DNA from: an uncultured Eubacterium sp.
Lineage (GTDB): Bacteria > Bacillota_A > Clostridia > Lachnospirales > Lachnospiraceae
Length of the DNA stretch: 5,935 nucleotides
Direction of reading: 5' to 3'
Assembly (NCBI GenBank): GCA_948560485.1
Contig: CAOXUF010000068.1
Location: 3,206-9,140, forward strand
The number at the start of each line of letters is the position of its first letter. Positions within the stretch are counted from its first letter, which is position 1. The notes under the pieces were generated by a model, which saw nothing but the letters and a program-made list of their open reading frames with translations, ran no database searches and had not been told where the DNA came from. The position numbers and the translations under genes are program-made. Positions 128 to 5,935 of the stretch are shown one piece after another.

Positions 128-1960
128 ATGAAAAGAAGTTTCAAGAAAATGATTGCAGTTTTATGTGCAATCGCAATGGTTGTAACATCGGTTACGGTTT
201 ACAACACACAGACAGCAGTAGCTAGTGCAAATGCAACTGCTAATGGTAAAGTTTATACTGTTACAGATGGTACAAACGAAGGGCTTACAGGTTTTACATG
301 TAACGGAATGGAAATCTTTAATGAGACAGATGGACATATTGGTTTTGCATGGGGAGAAAAAGTAGATTCTGAAAGTATTAAAGTGTCAATTAATGATGCA
401 GAAGTAACTACATACAATGCAACTGCTAATGGGATATTTGTAAATTATTCTCAGTTTAAGGATTTTGCAGATGGAGAATATCCTATTTTAGTGACAGCAA
501 CGACATCAGGAGAGACTGCAAAAGATGTTAAGGGAAATGCAACACTTAAGATTCAGGATCAGGGAGAGACTGAACCGGCAGTTACAGATCCAAGTGCAGT
601 TAAATGGGATGATATCAGCTGGTTGGGAAATGAAACAACAGATCAAGGAAATCTTGATAAATTTAAAGCATATGTTTCACCAGCAAATCCTAAAAAATTA
701 GAAGTAATCAATATTCAGACAAAGAATGATGTAAATGCACTTTACATGCCAAATAATGATTCGCCGGCAGACAAGATTGAAGTAAATGGTGCAGATGTTA
801 CAAGTGATTGTATTACTGATGGAACACAGACATTTGTTCCGGTATCATTGCTTACAAAAATGTATAATTCAGTTGTAATTACTACGGTGAATAGTAATGG
901 ATTGTCAGCGTTTATATTTAATAAGGCTGGAGAAGGTGGGAATACACCAGTAGATCCAGAAACAACACCAGGTGACGAAGAGACAACACCGGTAGATGTA
1001 GAAACAACACCAGGTGACGAAGAGACAACACCAGGAGATGTAGAAACAACACCAACACCAGCAGATATTGTACTGGATCAGGAATTGGCAGCACCAGCAG
1101 ATGATAATAATTATCAAGTAGGTGGTTATAATGTTTATGTTGGTAAATGGAATGGTTCAACAGCAGTGGCAGGAATAGATGCAGCTGACAAGAATCATAT
1201 TAAGATACAGCAGAAGACATGCCAGAACTGGGATCCATGGGGAATACAGGTAGGCAAGAAGGTTGCAGGTTTAACACCGGGAGAAACATATACATATACA
1301 GTTGAAATGAAAGCATCTCCAGTAGATGGAAATTATAAGAAGACAGGAGATGACACATTATATCCGTTACAGGCAGAGCAGACAGTTGAGATTCAGGTAA
1401 CAGCAACTGAAGATGGAGCAGCAGACTTTGTAATAGGCCTTGGCGGAGTAGGACTTGCAGTAGTAGTTGATATCAACAATCCTATATTAAAAGATTCAAA
1501 AGGAAATGTTGTTGATATGGATAAAACAGGGGATGTAGAGACAACACCGGATGCAGTAGAGACAACGACACCGGATGCAGCAGAGACAACAACACCTTCT
1601 GTTGTAGAAACAACTACACAGGCATCTGCAACTACAGAAGCTCCAAAGACAACAACAGCAGCACCAAAGGTAACAACAAAGAAGGCGCTTGGAAAGACAA
1701 CAGTTAAGAGTGCAAGCAAGAAAAAAGCAGCAACAAAGGTTAAACTTACATTTAAGAAAGTGAAAGGCGCTAAAAAATATCAGGTACAGATTTCAAAGAC
1801 TAAGAAGTTTAAGAAAGTCCTTGTTAAAAAGACAGTGAAGAAAGTAAAAGTAACTATTAAGAGCAAGAAAGTTAAGAATCAGAAAAAACTTTATGTAAGA
1901 GTAAGAGCTGTTGGGGCTAAGAAATGGTCAAAAGCTAAAAAGATAAAAATTAAAAAATAG
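128..1960 (+). CDS. Exported multidomain surface protein, CBM-like, with Thr-Pro linkers and Lys-rich C-terminus
   Basis: 610 residues, probably a cell-surface or secreted protein; no exact function recognised. Residues 1-34 form a classical signal peptide (KRSFKK n-region, hydrophobic core, likely cleavage after VASA). Residues 40-146 and 158-268 are two distantly similar beta-rich modules, each ending in a pattern like VxVNG...FVxxSxL...YNxVVxT. The same module occurs twice in the CotH protein downstream. Residues 271-312 are an ETTPGD-type linker. Residues 312-458 resemble a CBM4/9-type jelly roll (WDPWGIQ, a GLTPGETYTYTVEMKAS strand pair, then VVVDINNPILKD); this is inference from pattern only. 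Residues 465-518 are a second ETTTPD linker. Residues 519-610 are a Lys-rich, Fn3-like domain with GAKKYQVQIS and LYVRVRAV strands. Its last 73 residues are about 40% lysine with no Asp or Glu. There is no LPXTG signal, so the basic domain may hold the protein to anionic wall polymers (inference). The start is set by AAAGGAG at 113-119. Confidence 0.9.
   Translation: MKRSFKKMIAVLCAIAMVVTSVTVYNTQTAVASANATANGKVYTVTDGTNEGLTGFTCNGMEIFNETDGHIGFAWGEKVDSESIKVSINDAEVTTYNATANGIFVNYSQFKDFADGEYPILVTATTSGETAKDVKGNATLKIQDQGETEPAVTDPSAVKWDDISWLGNETTDQGNLDKFKAYVSPANPKKLEVINIQTKNDVNALYMPNNDSPADKIEVNGADVTSDCITDGTQTFVPVSLLTKMYNSVVITTVNSNGLSAFIFNKAGEGGNTPVDPETTPGDEETTPVDVETTPGDEETTPGDVETTPTPADIVLDQELAAPADDNNYQVGGYNVYVGKWNGSTAVAGIDAADKNHIKIQQKTCQNWDPWGIQVGKKVAGLTPGETYTYTVEMKASPVDGNYKKTGDDTLYPLQAEQTVEIQVTATEDGAADFVIGLGGVGLAVVVDINNPILKDSKGNVVDMDKTGDVETTPDAVETTTPDAAETTTPSVVETTTQASATTEAPKTTTAAPKVTTKKALGKTTVKSASKKKAATKVKLTFKKVKGAKKYQVQISKTKKFKKVLVKKTVKKVKVTIKSKKVKNQKKLYVRVRAVGAKKWSKAKKIKIKK
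959..1054 (+). repeat. 21-bp tandem repeat encoding ETTPGD(E/V) linker
   Basis: Four full 21-bp units (959-979, 980-1000, 1001-1021, 1022-1042) and a partial fifth (1043-1054). Units 1 and 3 are identical and units 2 and 4 nearly so, giving a higher-order 42-bp period. Each unit encodes ETTPGDE or ETTPxDV. Because the period is a multiple of three, unit gain or loss would change linker length without breaking the frame. Confidence 0.92.
1535..1620 (+). repeat. Degenerate repeat encoding ETT(T)PDA linker
   Basis: Imperfect 21-24-bp units (VETTPDA, VETTTPDA, AETTTPSV, VETTTQ) form the linker between the CBM-like domain and the Lys-rich domain. Units vary by one inserted Thr codon and by third-position changes, so this array looks older than the one at 959-1054. 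Confidence 0.8.
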
Positions 1961-2121: not shown

Positions 2122-2853
2122 ATGAAGAAGTTTTGGGCAATAGCATGTACGGTAATTATGCTGGCGGTTACAATGACAGTTGCAGGAGTACAGAATCCTG
2201 ATGCAGGAGATATAGACGGGGACATAAATCGAAATCCTTGGGAAGATTTGTTTACGACGGCAGTCACAACGGAGCAGGTAACGACAGCAGAGCCGGACAC
2301 TACATCAGTAGAGCCGGTTACGACTCCGGAAGAGGTGAATACTACGCCGGAACAATCAGAAACCACATCAGAAGAGAAGGATACTACAATAAATGAAGCC
2401 GATACTACGTCGGATGTATCAGAAACTACCTCAGAAATTTTGACATTAGATATAACAACAGTTTCAGATAGTACATCTATAATTACGGAACAAAAAACTA
2501 CAAAACCGATTATTACAGGGGATGAGGTTACTCATAATACAACAAAGAGCATAAAAGTTGGACAAACAAAGATAAGAAAAGCAATTAAAAAACAAAATTC
2601 AAAGAAAATTTTATTGAAACTGAAAAAAATAAAAGGGGCAAAAAAATATCAGATACAGGTTTCGAAAAATAAAAGATTTAAGAAAGTTTTAGTGAAAAAA
2701 ACTGTTAAGAAGACGAATGTAAAGATAAACAGTAAAAAGGTTATTCGTAAGAAAAAATTATACGTGAGAGCCAGAGCTGTTAAAATCGTAAAAAGCCAAA
2801 AATATTATGGTAAGTGGTCAAAGGCTAAAAAGATAAAAATAAAGAAAAAATAA
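2122..2853 (+). CDS. Exported Thr-linker protein with GDIxxNPWxxLF motif and Lys-rich C-terminal domain
   Basis: 243 residues; function not recognised. The start is fixed by AGAGGAG at 2109-2115, six bases before ATG. Residues 1-22 are a signal peptide (MKKFWAIAC..., hydrophobic to VAG). Shortly after it, residues 33-44 read GDINRNPWEDLF, a block shared with the next two genes. Residues 45-105 are a Thr/Glu linker with TT pairs exactly every seven residues from 60 to 103, followed by a Ser/Thr-rich stretch. From about residue 143 to the end is a Lys-rich, Fn3-like domain closely related to the C-terminus of the 610-residue protein (shared FKKVLVKKTVKK and WSKAKKIKIKK). The mature protein is strongly dipolar: an acidic N-terminal half and a very basic C-terminal half. 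It has no catalytic motif and no sortase signal. A structural or adhesive wall-associated role is likely, but this is inference. It is probably co-transcribed with the following gene, whose ribosome binding site overlaps this stop codon. Confidence 0.88.
   Translation: MKKFWAIACTVIMLAVTMTVAGVQNPDAGDIDGDINRNPWEDLFTTAVTTEQVTTAEPDTTSVEPVTTPEEVNTTPEQSETTSEEKDTTINEADTTSDVSETTSEILTLDITTVSDSTSIITEQKTTKPIITGDEVTHNTTKSIKVGQTKIRKAIKKQNSKKILLKLKKIKGAKKYQIQVSKNKRFKKVLVKKTVKKTNVKINSKKVIRKKKLYVRARAVKIVKSQKYYGKWSKAKKIKIKKK
2299..2436 (+). repeat. Seven-residue Thr-Thr linker repeat
   Basis: Encodes seven consecutive TT pairs spaced exactly seven residues apart (residues 60, 67, 74, 81, 88, 95, 102), with mainly Glu, Asp, Ser and Pro between them. 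The DNA is diverged between units, so the 21-base period is kept mostly at protein level. The same period is used in the 610-residue protein's linker at 959-1054. Confidence 0.8.
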
Positions 2854-2856
2854 GGA
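2852..2856 (+). promoter_or_regulatory. Ribosome binding site overlapping the upstream stop codon
   Basis: AAGGA at 2852-2856 overlaps the TAA of the preceding gene. It abuts an ATG at 2857 (no spacing) and lies 12 bases before an in-frame ATG at 2869. The later ATG is preferred for spacing. It also places the GDIxxNPFxxLF block at residues 33-44, exactly as in the preceding gene. The arrangement suggests translational coupling. Confidence 0.6.
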
Positions 2857-2868
2857 ATGATTAATATA

Positions 2869-3078
2869 ATGAAGAATATATTGCATAAGATAGTAGTTTT
2901 TATTTTGGTTATAACTTTAGGATTGTGTGTACCAACACGCAATATAAATGCAGATGGTTTTGATGGAGATATAATGGAAAATCCTTTTGCACATTTATTT
3001 GTAGATGGAGAACCGGGAGATGCTGTAATAGGAAATCAGGTTCAGAAACCGACCGTTCAAGCAACAAAAAAAGATTAA
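2869..3078 (+). CDS. N-terminal part of a frameshifted exported protein with GDIxxNPFxxLF motif
   Basis: As read directly, 69 residues ending in QATKKD and a stop. From ATG 2869 it has a signal peptide (KNILHK, then a hydrophobic run to about residue 22, likely cleavage after NINA at 28). The block GDIMENPFAHLF follows at residues 33-44, the same numbering as in the upstream paralogue. An ATG at 2857 would add four residues (MINI) but has no spacing to the ribosome binding site. The frame stops at 3076-3078 right after a run of seven A's. The Lys-rich domain expected from the paralogue continues in the -1 frame to 3386. Joined by a -1 shift, the product would be about 172 residues: signal peptide, motif, very short linker, Lys-rich domain. 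It lacks the long Thr linker of its neighbours. Whether the 69-residue form, the joined form or both are made is unknown. Confidence 0.75.
   Translation: MKNILHKIVVFILVITLGLCVPTRNINADGFDGDIMENPFAHLFVDGEPGDAVIGNQVQKPTVQATKKD
3066..3078 (+). other. Slippery A AAA AAA heptamer followed by stop codon
   Basis: In the zero frame the sequence reads ACA AAA AAA GAT TAA. The heptamer A-AAA-AAA at 3066-3072 fits the X-XXY-YYZ form for -1 ribosomal slippage, and a zero-frame stop follows one codon later. After a -1 step, reading continues AGA TTA AAA into the open Lys-rich frame. No clear upstream Shine-Dalgarno stimulator or strong downstream hairpin is seen, so a one-base deletion or sequencing error in the A-run is an equal alternative. 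Confidence 0.55.
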
Positions 3079-3386
3079 AAAAATTATTAAAAACTTCTAT
3101 AAAATCGGCAACAAGAAAAAATAAAGAATCTAAAAAAGCAAAGGTTGTTTTAAAGAAAATAACAAAAGTAAAAGGAGTTAGATACCAGATTAAATATGCA
3201 TCAAACAAGAAATTTAAAAAAGCAAAGGTTAAAACATTTAAAAATAATAAAATTACAATAAAAAAATTAAAAGTCAGAAGAAATTATTACATAAAAGCGA
3301 GAGCGTATGCAAAAGGCAGCAATGGAGAAAAAGTTTATGGTAAATGGACAAAACGCAAGATGATTAAGTTTCGTAAGAAAAAGTGA
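3072..3386 (+). pseudogene. Frame-shifted Lys-rich C-terminal domain of the preceding gene
   Basis: About 104 codons in the -1 frame, ending at TGA 3384-3386. The segment has no in-frame ATG, GTG or TTG that could start it (the only Met is eight codons before the end), so it must be reached by slippage or is dead sequence. Its translation contains KVKGVRYQIKYAS, NYYIKARAYAKG and YGKWTKRKMIKF. These align with the paralogue's KIKGAKKYQIQVS, LYVRARAV and YGKWSKAKKIKI. Only one acidic residue appears in the last roughly 80. The intact frame, with conserved aromatic and glycine positions, argues that it is translated or was very recently. Classed as pseudogene only because the frame is broken in this sequence. 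Confidence 0.6.
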
Positions 3387-3395
3387 TTATAAGCA

Positions 3396-3424
3396 TTGCT
3401 TTCTTTGATAAAATATGCTATAAA
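3396..3424 (+). promoter_or_regulatory. Promoter of the 49-residue peptide gene
   Basis: TTGCTT (3396-3401), a 17-base spacer and TATAAA (3419-3424), with TG at 3416-3417 giving an extended -10. The -35 box begins only ten bases after the preceding stop codon. A second possible pair, TTGATA (3405-3410) and TATAGA (3429-3434), has an 18-base spacer. Having its own promoter sets the small gene apart from the upstream pair. Confidence 0.62.
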
Positions 3425-3468
3425 TTTGTATAGATATTAGATTCCATATAAATTTATTGCATTATTGT

Positions 3469-3474
3469 GAGGAG
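3469..3474 (+). promoter_or_regulatory. Strong ribosome binding site of the small peptide
   Basis: GAGGAG lies seven bases before ATG 3482. This near-ideal site is the main reason to accept the short open frame that follows as a real gene. Confidence 0.85.
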
Positions 3475-3481
3475 TTATATT

Positions 3482-3631
3482 ATGAGAAAGTATGAGACGC
3501 CAGAATTGAAATCAATTTATTTTGAATTGAATAACAGAATTATGGATGGATATGAGGGTGGTGACATTGGAGACAACCCATGGGGAGAGTTATTTACTGA
3601 GGAAGGTTCAGGGGATGACCCTTTACAGTAG
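3482..3631 (+). CDS. 49-residue leaderless peptide with KYxxPEL start and GDIxxNPWxxLF motif
   Basis: A short gene with a good promoter (3396-3424), ribosome binding site (3469-3474) and perfect terminator (3663-3689), hence a single-gene transcription unit. It starts MRKYETPELKSIYF. A YxxPEL motif near the N-terminus is seen in many small clostridial peptides and resembles the YxxP element in leader regions of some ribosomally made, modified peptides (known of those families; no modification enzyme is in this window). A Gly-Gly at residues 26-27 precedes DIGDNPWGELF, so residues 27-38 carry the GDIxxNPWxxLF block found after the signal peptides of the two upstream exported proteins. The tail is acidic (TEEGSGDDPLQ). 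It has no signal peptide, membrane segment or cysteine. Possible roles are a precursor peptide, a signal peptide-like pheromone, or a cytoplasmic partner mimicking the exported proteins. None is proven. Confidence 0.82.
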   Translation: MRKYETPELKSIYFELNNRIMDGYEGGDIGDNPWGELFTEEGSGDDPLQ

Positions 3632-3899: not shown

Positions 3900-3989
3900 A
3901 TGAGAAAATATTGGAAGCCATTTTTTGTGTCTAAACAAATAAGCGGGACTGAAGAAAGACAAAGGAGTATTAGAAAAAAGAAAGGAACT
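3900..3989 (+). other. In-frame 30-codon upstream extension of the CotH gene (alternative start)
   Basis: An ATG at 3900 is in frame with the CotH gene and preceded by AAGGA four bases away. The extension begins MRKYWKPFF and is rich in Arg and Lys. It starts with the same MRKYxxP pattern as the 49-residue peptide. The frame stays open even further upstream, to 3846. Starting here would give a leader length like the other genes but an unusually long charged stretch before the signal sequence. It also contains, at 3961-3976, a 16-base copy of the ribosome binding block at 113-128. It could be the true N-terminus, a short leader peptide remnant, or untranslated leader. Confidence 0.4.
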
Positions 3990-5935
3990 ATGAGAAGAGC
4001 AGTGTCAATTGTTCTTGCATTGGCGATGGTCATTACTAGTTTAAGTTATACGCCAAAAACAGTTGAAGCTGCAGAAGATTATTCAGGATTGAGTTTTACT
4101 GAAGTTGTTGGTATGAATGGATCATATGCATGGAATCTGAAAGAGAATAACATAGCAGGCTTTAGTGGAACGCCAGAGTTTCAAGATCAGAATTATATGA
4201 AGATAGTATATTCTGCCGATAATAAAACAGAAGATACCAAAATTACGGTAGACGGTGTGCCAAAGACTCTCAGTGATGAGGAAGTTTTTGAACAGGCACT
4301 TGGCATGACGACCTTTTTGGTATCTGCCTTATCAGATAACAACTATCACGAACTGGTAATTACAACTACCACAGGAAAGGCTGTTATTATTTTAAAGAAA
4401 GGAACTCCAAGCGGCAGTGGTGAATTGGATACTACATCTGGAACATCAGAAACAACAACTGCCACTCAATCAGGTGGAGATTATTCAGATCTTAATTTTG
4501 AGACGATTGAAAACACAACGAATCCAAATAACGGAATTGAACATGCGGTGGCATGGATTCAGCCGGCAGAAGGAGTAAGATTTAGTCTTAAGAGATATGG
4601 AACTGTTGGAGCTGGAAACAGGGTGTTTTTAGAGTTCGATTATGCACCGGTTTATAAAGATGTTAAAGTAAACGGAGTTGCACTTCCAACTGATAATGAT
4701 CACAATGCTGGTGGTGCATGGCTGGGATTCTTTGACAGCGATTTAACTGACAACGCATACAATGTTGTTACAGGTACAAATGGTAATGGTCAGGAATTCA
4801 GTTTTGTTATTCGAAAAGGAACTCCTAGTGAGCAGTCTACTACAGGCGGAACACTCACAGATTTAACAGCAGTTACCAATGCTTTCGTATATAATTTTAC
4901 AGAAGCAGGTGAGGGCTACAAGGTATACTTTAAAGATGGTAATGTATTACCGGAAGGCAGTACACGTAAATATATCGTAAGTATAGGAGAGCAGACAGTT
5001 GAGGTTGCTGAATCAGGAGCTTCAGTTAATGTAGATGGACTTGGATTAACAGATGGAACAAAATATGATGTAAAAGTAAAAGCTGTTTATACAGATGGCG
5101 AGGGAACTGAAATTGTTTCACCTGATTCAGAAATAACACAGTTTACATACAAGGCAAGTGCAGTAAATGCCTATGATGATGGAATTGCACAGATTTTTAT
5201 TAACACATCAAGAACTACATCAGGTACTAAGATTACACAAGATGTAGATATTTATAAGGATGAGTCAAAGATTAAATTTGATGCGGCGATTACAGTAAAA
5301 GGTGCTGACGGAACAGTTGCAGCATGGGATTATGGTACAGCGAATGTACGTGGAAATTCTACAAAGTCAGCACAGAAGAAAGCATATAATATTAAGTTTA
5401 ATGCTGCACATGATTTGTTTGGAATGGGTTCAGCGAAAAAGTGGAGCCTTCTTGCAAACTGTTTTGATAAAACATTAATGAGAAATCAGGTTGCTTTTGA
5501 TTTTTATAATAAGTTAGAAGCACAGCATGCCAGTGGCAATGCATTTAGTAGTAAATGTAAGCCGGCAGATTTATATGTAGATGGAAACTATTTAGGTTCT
5601 TATTTATTAATTGAATCTGTAGAAGAAGGAGTTAATCGTGTAAATATTAATGCAGGAAATGCAAATAATGATGACATTCTTCTTGAAATTGATAATTCTG
5701 GTAGAGATGAAAGTACAGACCCTCACTTAAAGGGAAGAACAAGCAAATATGACATGTATTTTGCAGTAAACGAACCGGAAGATATTGAAACAGATCCACA
5801 GTATGATGGAAAGAGAGACAGAACCCTTGCATATTTGGAAGAGTTTGAGACTGCATTACAGGCAAAGAACTTTACACAGATATCTAATCTGATCGATTTG
5901 GAGTCATTTGTAGATTTCTATATCGTATCTGAATT
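3990..5935 (+). CDS. CotH-family secreted kinase-like protein, 3' truncated by the window
   Basis: 648 residues visible, still open at the right edge. CotH proteins are atypical secreted or spore-coat kinases that phosphorylate Ser residues on Lys/Arg/Ser-rich partners (established for Bacillus CotH with CotB and CotG). Residues 1-28 are a signal peptide (MRRAVSIVLALAMV..., likely cut after VEAA). Residues 30-140 and 164-280 are two copies of a beta-rich module, each opening DYS(G/D)L and closing with a (K/R)KGTPS motif, joined by a short Thr/Ser linker. Residues 288-388 are Fn3-like (DGTKYDVKVKAVYTDG). From about 395 comes the CotH domain: RGNST at 454-458, KKWSLLAN from 483, DKTLMRN from 493, the VDGNYLGSYLLIE strand from 530, NRVNI, then LLEID near 565. 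These are hallmark CotH (PF08757) blocks. ATG 3990 was chosen for the classical signal peptide, with AAAGGA only three bases before it; ATG 3900 in frame is the alternative. The missing C-terminus may carry a Thr linker and Lys-rich domain like its neighbours (prediction). Confidence 0.88.
   Translation, partial: MRRAVSIVLALAMVITSLSYTPKTVEAAEDYSGLSFTEVVGMNGSYAWNLKENNIAGFSGTPEFQDQNYMKIVYSADNKTEDTKITVDGVPKTLSDEEVFEQALGMTTFLVSALSDNNYHELVITTTTGKAVIILKKGTPSGSGELDTTSGTSETTTATQSGGDYSDLNFETIENTTNPNNGIEHAVAWIQPAEGVRFSLKRYGTVGAGNRVFLEFDYAPVYKDVKVNGVALPTDNDHNAGGAWLGFFDSDLTDNAYNVVTGTNGNGQEFSFVIRKGTPSEQSTTGGTLTDLTAVTNAFVYNFTEAGEGYKVYFKDGNVLPEGSTRKYIVSIGEQTVEVAESGASVNVDGLGLTDGTKYDVKVKAVYTDGEGTEIVSPDSEITQFTYKASAVNAYDDGIAQIFINTSRTTSGTKITQDVDIYKDESKIKFDAAITVKGADGTVAAWDYGTANVRGNSTKSAQKKAYNIKFNAAHDLFGMGSAKKWSLLANCFDKTLMRNQVAFDFYNKLEAQHASGNAFSSKCKPADLYVDGNYLGSYLLIESVEEGVNRVNINAGNANNDDILLEIDNSGRDESTDPHLKGRTSKYDMYFAVNEPEDIETDPQYDGKRDRTLAYLEEFETALQAKNFTQISNLIDLESFVDFYIVSE

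Follow-up and report, generated by a model that had tools for sequence, protein, structure and literature searches.

A twelve-residue motif common to exported proteins and a small leader-bearing peptide in gut Lachnospiraceae is a candidate extracellular docking epitope

Why would three consecutive genes, two encoding exported proteins and the third a peptide of 49 residues, carry the same twelve-residue block? The question is raised by a 5,935-nucleotide stretch of DNA from an uncultured Eubacterium sp. of the Lachnospiraceae (assembly GCA_948560485.1, contig CAOXUF010000068.1, positions 3,206 to 9,140; hereafter the window), on the forward strand of which the block GDIxxNP(W/F)xxLF stands at 2218–2253 in gene A (GDINRNPWEDLF), at 2965–3000 in gene B (GDIMENPFAHLF) and at 3560–3595 in the small peptide (GDIGDNPWGELF), with the identical spacing that the initial annotation had reported. 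We tentatively favour, with a probability of about 0.4, a lineage-specific short linear motif that would reach the outside of the cell by two export routes and act there as a docking or assembly epitope.

The recurrence is not a coincidence of composition. Residue frequencies give expectations of 4e-10, 5e-8 and 3e-8 for GDIxxNP[WF]xxLF in the three proteins, and the pattern never arose in 20,000 shuffles of them, which together rule out a chance match in the three genes. Among 18 aligned relatives of gene B with lengths of 170–187 residues, the motif residues G, D, N, P, L and F never vary, and mean conservation is 0.82 for the motif and 0.80 for a Lys-rich domain, against 0.55 for the linker and 0.52 for the signal peptide. 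This bears out the initial annotation's view that the block itself is selected, and neither outcome that it had named as speaking against the block, hits at chance frequency or a lack of conservation in relatives, was seen. Judging from the aligned sequences, selection acts at the peptide level, since the codons for the conserved residues vary across 41 distinct DNA copies (five codons for the Leu), and this synonymous variation rules out a DNA-level element. Variants included, the consensus is GD(I/V)xxNP(W/F)xxLF; an EF-hand- or dockerin-like loop was dismissed by eye, the acid at position 12 being missing from many copies, and searches of open-licence PubMed Central (PMC) papers listed none that was recognised as describing this motif.

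The carriers differ in build but place the motif similarly. We tabulated 63 motif-bearing open reading frames (ORFs), 47 from the window's genus and 16 from a second genus, g297, in stretches chosen by motif matches rather than as whole genomes, with a pattern that misses the copies of two genomes (G258 and G259; genomes, contigs, loci and proteins are cited here by G, C, L and P numbers). Eight are small peptides without a signal peptide, three are ClpX proteins and 49 begin with a hydrophobic stretch (one of them, L137, counted by eye from an internal ATG), while three have no start in the fetched DNA, though the tail of a signal peptide can be seen in one of these. The first motif match starts 5–20 residues past the hydrophobic stretch in 42 of the 49 exported carriers, in agreement with the earlier suggestion that the block lies near the new N-terminus after signal peptide removal. 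Behind it follow a Thr-rich stalk and a Lys-rich domain in many carriers and Ig-type repeats in others; g297 additionally encodes exported proteins of about 100 residues with three motif copies, and one carrier of 548 residues has eight.

Gene A (2122–2853; like every gene described in the window, on the forward strand) follows the first of these builds, with 243 residues comprising a signal peptide, the motif, a Thr/Glu-rich stalk and a C-terminal Lys-rich domain. The 5' part of gene B (2857–3078) encodes a signal peptide, the motif and the start of a linker before a frameshift in an A-rich tract cuts the gene, and its 3' part (3079–3386), which encodes the Lys-rich domain, lies in a different frame on the same strand. 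The block had been assigned to residues 33–44 of both exported proteins, which holds for A from the ATG at 2122 and for B only from its second ATG at 2869, the positions becoming 37–48 from the ATG at 2857. The 73 residues encoded in the window are a frameshifted copy of a gene that is intact in the nearest genome, G001 (176 residues, with a Lys-rich C-terminal domain), and intact relatives of similar length are also present in the protein database; the frameshift is either a sequencing error or a strain difference. An AlphaFold prediction of the intact B relative P0126 gave per-block confidence scores (pLDDT) of 90–97 over residues 71–170, and the best Foldseek matches of this Lys-rich domain are fn3-type modules (E 3.6e-5 and weaker, probability 1.00), so that an fn3 fold is confidently predicted; the Lys-rich domain of A had no Pfam match above the cut-off. 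Separately, P0145 has a lipoprotein-like signal (LLTGC) before a gene-B type Lys-rich domain, and the motif is absent from it.

The motif is widespread in the window's genus and in g297. A profile of 26 motif rows drawn from 12 of the 23 genomes of the window's genus (A1), which matches those 12 by construction, gave hits in 21 of the 23 at E ≤ 1 and in 16 at E ≤ 1e-3; after the matches had been read, the motif was present in 20 and was not found in G252, G263 and G272. Eight of the motif-bearing genomes are outside the profile (G254, G257, G258, G259, G260, G261, G265 and G269), four of them at E ≤ 1e-3. The 49-residue peptide as query matched 17 of the 23 at E ≤ 1, many of these matches being the motif alone within other exported proteins. 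A1 holds no g297 rows and was nevertheless the profile that first detected that genus, in which the motif occurs in all three genomes; a broader profile with g297 rows (A4) matches them by construction, ClpX excepted. When both profiles were run against 397 family genomes from 334 genera at E ≤ 0.01, they returned the window's genus, g297 and one match in G036, a radical SAM protein that was judged chance on reading, as were two further weak matches, in G031 (solute-binding type) and G195 (cupin type), from 250 family genomes searched at E ≤ 0.1. Within the family sample, therefore, only these two genera appear to exceed chance. Across the class (371 genomes, 213 genera) the search returned G001 and two weak matches, of which the one in G526 is partial, in a frame overlapping another gene, and was rejected, and the one in G547 (EDGDVISNPYGG), inside a solute-binding type protein, is probably chance. 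Of 143 relatives listed for A or B (from the first search, the best 120 of 202), 84 fit the motif pattern; some carry the source label Eubacterium sp.

The small peptide carries the motif at residues 27–38 and had been described as leaderless, which is not supported: it begins with a leader of the kind read by the recognition elements (RREs) of ribosomally synthesised and post-translationally modified peptides (RiPPs). Its N-terminus, YETPEL, belongs to a family YxxPx[LIMV]....FE....I(M/T), whose Y, P and F are invariant in 18 aligned leader segments; a search of 250 family genomes at E ≤ 0.05 turned up members in 15, some by marginal matches. According to PMC13381572 and PMC10368454, [Y/W]xxPx[L/V/I/A/F/Y] is the leader motif bound by the recognition elements of lasso, PQQ and LPP pathways, and the window's peptide has this [Y/W]xxP motif. 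We accordingly divide the peptide into a leader (3482–3544, MRKYETPELKSIYFELNNRIM), whose end point is our estimate, and a predicted core with stop codon (3545–3631, DGYEGGDIGDNPWGELFTEEGSGDDPLQ). The full LPP leader consensus YxxPxVLxHQxIxFETxxS is not present, as HQ is missing and the spacing from Y to F is shorter by eye.

Relatives of this leader in other genera stand beside biosynthetic genes. Among 16 loci fetched around them, five (G013, G026, G239, G121:C6 and G121:C2) contain LPP-type genes, namely PqqD-like, archaeal-type signal peptidase-like, HprK-related, NTP_transf_5 and ABC genes, G013, G239 and G121:C6 with all five kinds and G026 and G121:C2 with four; the set is absent from the remaining 11. 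Such a set (a signal peptidase, SpI; a discrete RRE; an HprK-like kinase; an NTP transferase; an MsbA-like exporter) defines LPPs in PMC13381572. Since no LPP machinery was found beside the window's peptide, we describe it as apparently built like an LPP-type precursor and do not claim membership. No macrolactam cyclase was seen by eye or in Pfam and NCBIfam scans of selected genes, no search with cyclase models having been made. At one of the five loci (L237:7882–10575, G121:C6), a YxxP peptide lies behind radical SAM/SPASM and PqqD-like genes and is followed by a protein-kinase-domain gene.

Beyond the motif, the peptide had been said to have no other similarity to the exported proteins; this did not hold either. 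The part following the leader's IM (DGYEGGDIGDNPWGELFTEEGSGD) aligns over about 23 residues with the N-terminus of mature B (DGFDGDIMENPFAHLFVDGEPGD), with a score of 54 against 24.8 ± 4.4 for shuffled sequences and none of 200 shuffles as high. A second, unrelated case occurs in another genus (G008, L242:9270–10022), where the precursor has the C-terminus DEYELPFIPNKP and the protein next to it, hydrophobic at its N-terminus, the C-terminus EEYELPFIPVG (0 of 200 shuffles), the common core EYELPFIP being unrelated to the motif. If the Lys-rich domain of B and the hydrophobic N-terminus of the G008 protein are anchors, the common piece is at the free tip in both. A test on whole loci, with 40 shuffles for each of 22 peptides, placed five of the seven window-type loci beyond all shuffles.

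Gene order around the small peptides is also conserved. Motif-bearing small peptides occur in eight of the 23 genus genomes, and in seven of these eight loci (G001, G267, G262, G264, G255, G253 and G266) one or two exported motif genes are followed by the small peptide and then by a large exported gene; in the eighth, G265, the peptide comes after a large gene, and its 7-kb contig has no motif gene. In the window itself, the peptide is followed by an exported CotH-domain protein (3900–5935; PF08757, E = 3.3e-27) that extends past the window end and has 3418 residues in G001. Pfam scanning of G001, G267, G264 and G255, with G262, G253 and G266 outside the scan, identified the large gene as CotH in G001, GH81 in G267 and GH16 in G264, while in G255 no family was assigned to the first gene after the peptide, CotH being named for the second and third. 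The initial annotation had asked whether matches cluster near Lys-rich exported proteins or CotH genes; carriers do occur next to such proteins and next to genes for CotH or glucanases. G260 has GH94, GH17, LacI and ABC genes at L122 and a GH81 gene at L111, a set of beta-1,3-glucan type. GH94–GH161 tandems and a GH161 cluster with GH16 are described in PMC6484121. By eye, similar glucan-type genes are present in other motif loci, and further carriers lie in exopolysaccharide loci.

The docking reading is favoured by the peptide-level selection, the 5–20 residue position, the differing carrier builds, the gene order, the match of the peptide's core to B and the RRE-type leader, with LPP-type genes beside its relatives in other genera. 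By the first route, the motif would reach the surface near the free N-terminus of Sec-exported proteins, held there by the Thr-rich stalk and the Lys-rich domain of predicted fn3 fold; by the second, it would be made within a small RiPP-like precursor, as the core behind a YxxP leader of lasso/LPP type that a PqqD-like protein would recognise before the product is trimmed and pumped out. Tethered and diffusible copies would then bind one surface partner in structures handling beta-1,3-glucan or exopolysaccharide. A narrower possibility, which we hold as a conjecture, is that the RiPP and its surface-tethered twin are a functional pair, the core being the epitope displayed at the tips of neighbouring proteins, with the copies competing for or co-assembling on one partner. 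Such use of LPP-type peptides may extend beyond this genus, since the core in G008 is likewise common to the C-terminal tip of the adjacent protein.

Several observations weigh against the docking reading. Two AlphaFold predictions gave no confident contact of the motif with its carrier's own domains, a negative result for such docking in cis, and the motif blocks have pLDDT values of 49 and 66 in B (relative P0126) and of 50 and 45 in P0045. The peptides of two of the five LPP-type loci (G239 and G121:C2) are without the Pro of YxxP. In the stretches fetched from the window's genus, the whole contig G001:C9 among them and the genus genomes not having been searched entire, no relatives of the RRE, SpI or HprK turned up; the only LPP-type matches there were a relative of NTP_transf_5 in G260:C77 and distant ones to ABC genes. 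Core sharing, tested in 15 peptides of which two are without an exported neighbour, is clear in only two of the remaining 13 and marginal in one (G026, 2 of 200 shuffles), and the 10 negative peptides rule it out as a general rule; in the whole-locus test, G253 (z 1.4) and G255 (z 2.5) were not beyond all 40 shuffles. The main fact against extracellular docking, which leaves it unexplained, is that the cytosolic ClpX of g297 carries the motif. In all three g297 genomes (G319, G419 and G420; loci L130, L134 and L138), the sequence NEDGDVxxNPFGxLF lies in the N-terminal extension of ClpX, shortly before the zinc finger; it was found at E 3e-7 to 5e-7 although neither profile held ClpX, and its genus-specific flavour matches that of the g297 exported copies.

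This ClpX copy speaks for a motif read inside the cell before export, whether by a chaperone of secretion, an adaptor for a protease or a modifying enzyme, with the small peptide and ClpX as other clients, and the motif's place among the earliest segments to emerge behind the signal peptide would suit such a reader. We nevertheless consider this unlikely: ClpX of the window's genus has a similarly acidic N-terminus and carries the motif in none of the 21 proteins shown (G266 and G267 gave only fragments), and copies also lie far downstream, at residue 166 of one exported protein, and at a C-terminus. Shared phosphorylation is unlikely, since the block of the window's B has no Ser or Thr, although some relatives do. 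On the same ground, and because the exported copies have no YxxP leader, we do not favour, for those copies, the initial annotation's idea of a block recognised by a modifying enzyme. We see no single explanation that covers both the exported carriers and the g297 ClpX.

Between the two other roles that had been offered, docking peptide and signal, the multi-copy carriers lean towards docking. A released peptide signal, with the exported proteins as precursors and the RiPP-like peptide as another form, would account for the three-copy proteins of g297 and for the small precursor in the window; it becomes improbable on inspection of the 548-residue protein, where by eye no repeated cleavage site separates the eight copies, although a few Lys occur there, an arrangement that fits multivalent binding better than peptide release. 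Many carriers, moreover, keep a surface-type domain behind the motif, and no gene for a peptide receptor was noticed beside the loci read, no search having been aimed at one.

We give still less credence to decoy immunity, by which the small peptide would be antagonistic and its target in the producer would be occupied, and so protected, by the copies tethered on A and B. The adjacency of tethered copies and precursor in seven of eight loci would fit this, as would the patchiness of LPP and lasso clusters, which PMC13381572 likens to that of biological conflicts; the motif, however, is present in 20 of 23 genomes against eight with a motif-bearing small peptide, and for many carriers the stretch read contains no precursor. 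Plain paralogy, with the block inherited from one ancestor and without separate function, can be largely set aside: many carriers do have the stalk and the Lys-rich domain in common, the latter conserved to much the same degree as the motif, but the signal peptides and linkers on either side of the motif have diverged, one protein has eight copies, and Ig-repeat proteins, the RiPP-like peptide and ClpX carry the motif without having the domain.

The remaining features of the window stand apart from these arguments. Upstream of A lies an exported, Thr-rich protein with a Lys-rich domain at its end (128–1960, forward strand) and without the motif. G001 has all sampled 31-mers in common with the window, and the aligned DNA is 98.7% identical from base 16 onward; bases 1–15 read acgctcttccgatct, which we take to resemble an Illumina adapter end, and since the G001 match begins only at base 16, the window start is probably an artefact. 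A second group of small peptides with YxxP leaders is motif-free (L003:19738–19920, L063, L064, L065, L072, L075 and L076); its members are immediately preceded by large exported genes (CotH in G001) and followed by another exported gene, in several loci near ileS. At L235:10448–14517 (G001:C7), two identical 46-residue peptides of YxxP type, ending in EQGWTGLF, stand behind two related exported proteins.

That surface proteins of two related gut genera, unlike in other respects, carry one tag close to their exposed ends, and that a small precursor-like peptide repeats it, points to a common partner. According to PMC13381572, it is not known what LPP peptides do. Where adjacent surface proteins repeat the core at their tips, near glucan and polysaccharide genes, the repetition offers a handle on function, namely to find what binds the motif, for which the motif peptide in probe form is DGFDGDIMENPFAHLF. 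It also suggests a rule for genome mining, a precursor core repeated in a neighbouring exported protein, clear here for two unrelated cores, and the motif may serve as a marker for extracellular polysaccharide apparatus in little-studied gut Lachnospiraceae.

Compared with known systems, the exported carriers resemble bacterial fn3-fold surface proteins in their predicted fold and Thr-rich stalk and differ from them in that the Lys-rich domain of A is without a Pfam match above the cut-off. A lasso ring joins residue 1 to an Asp or Glu at positions 7–9, a pattern that the window's core lacks, and no macrolactam cyclase was noticed in the loci read. With lasso and PQQ precursors, as presented in PMC13381572, the peptide has the RRE-binding leader motif in common. 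The LPPs, RiPPs of Bacilli described in the same source (PMC13381572), have a conserved YxxP-type leader and variable C-terminus like those of the peptide and, like its relatives in other genera, the same kinds of neighbouring genes and polysaccharide genes nearby. They differ in their leader (YxxPxVLxHQxIxFET against YxxPxLxxxxFE), in the biosynthetic genes, none of which was found beside the window's peptide, and in that the window's core is common to adjacent Sec-exported proteins. In cellulosomes, the pairing of cohesin and dockerin lets a small surface element recruit glycan-active proteins. Here the element is a linear motif of 12 residues, and the scanned proteins contained no dockerin or cohesin Pfam family; if the motif does dock, its action would be cellulosome-like, with CotH domains and glucanases encoded near the motif loci.

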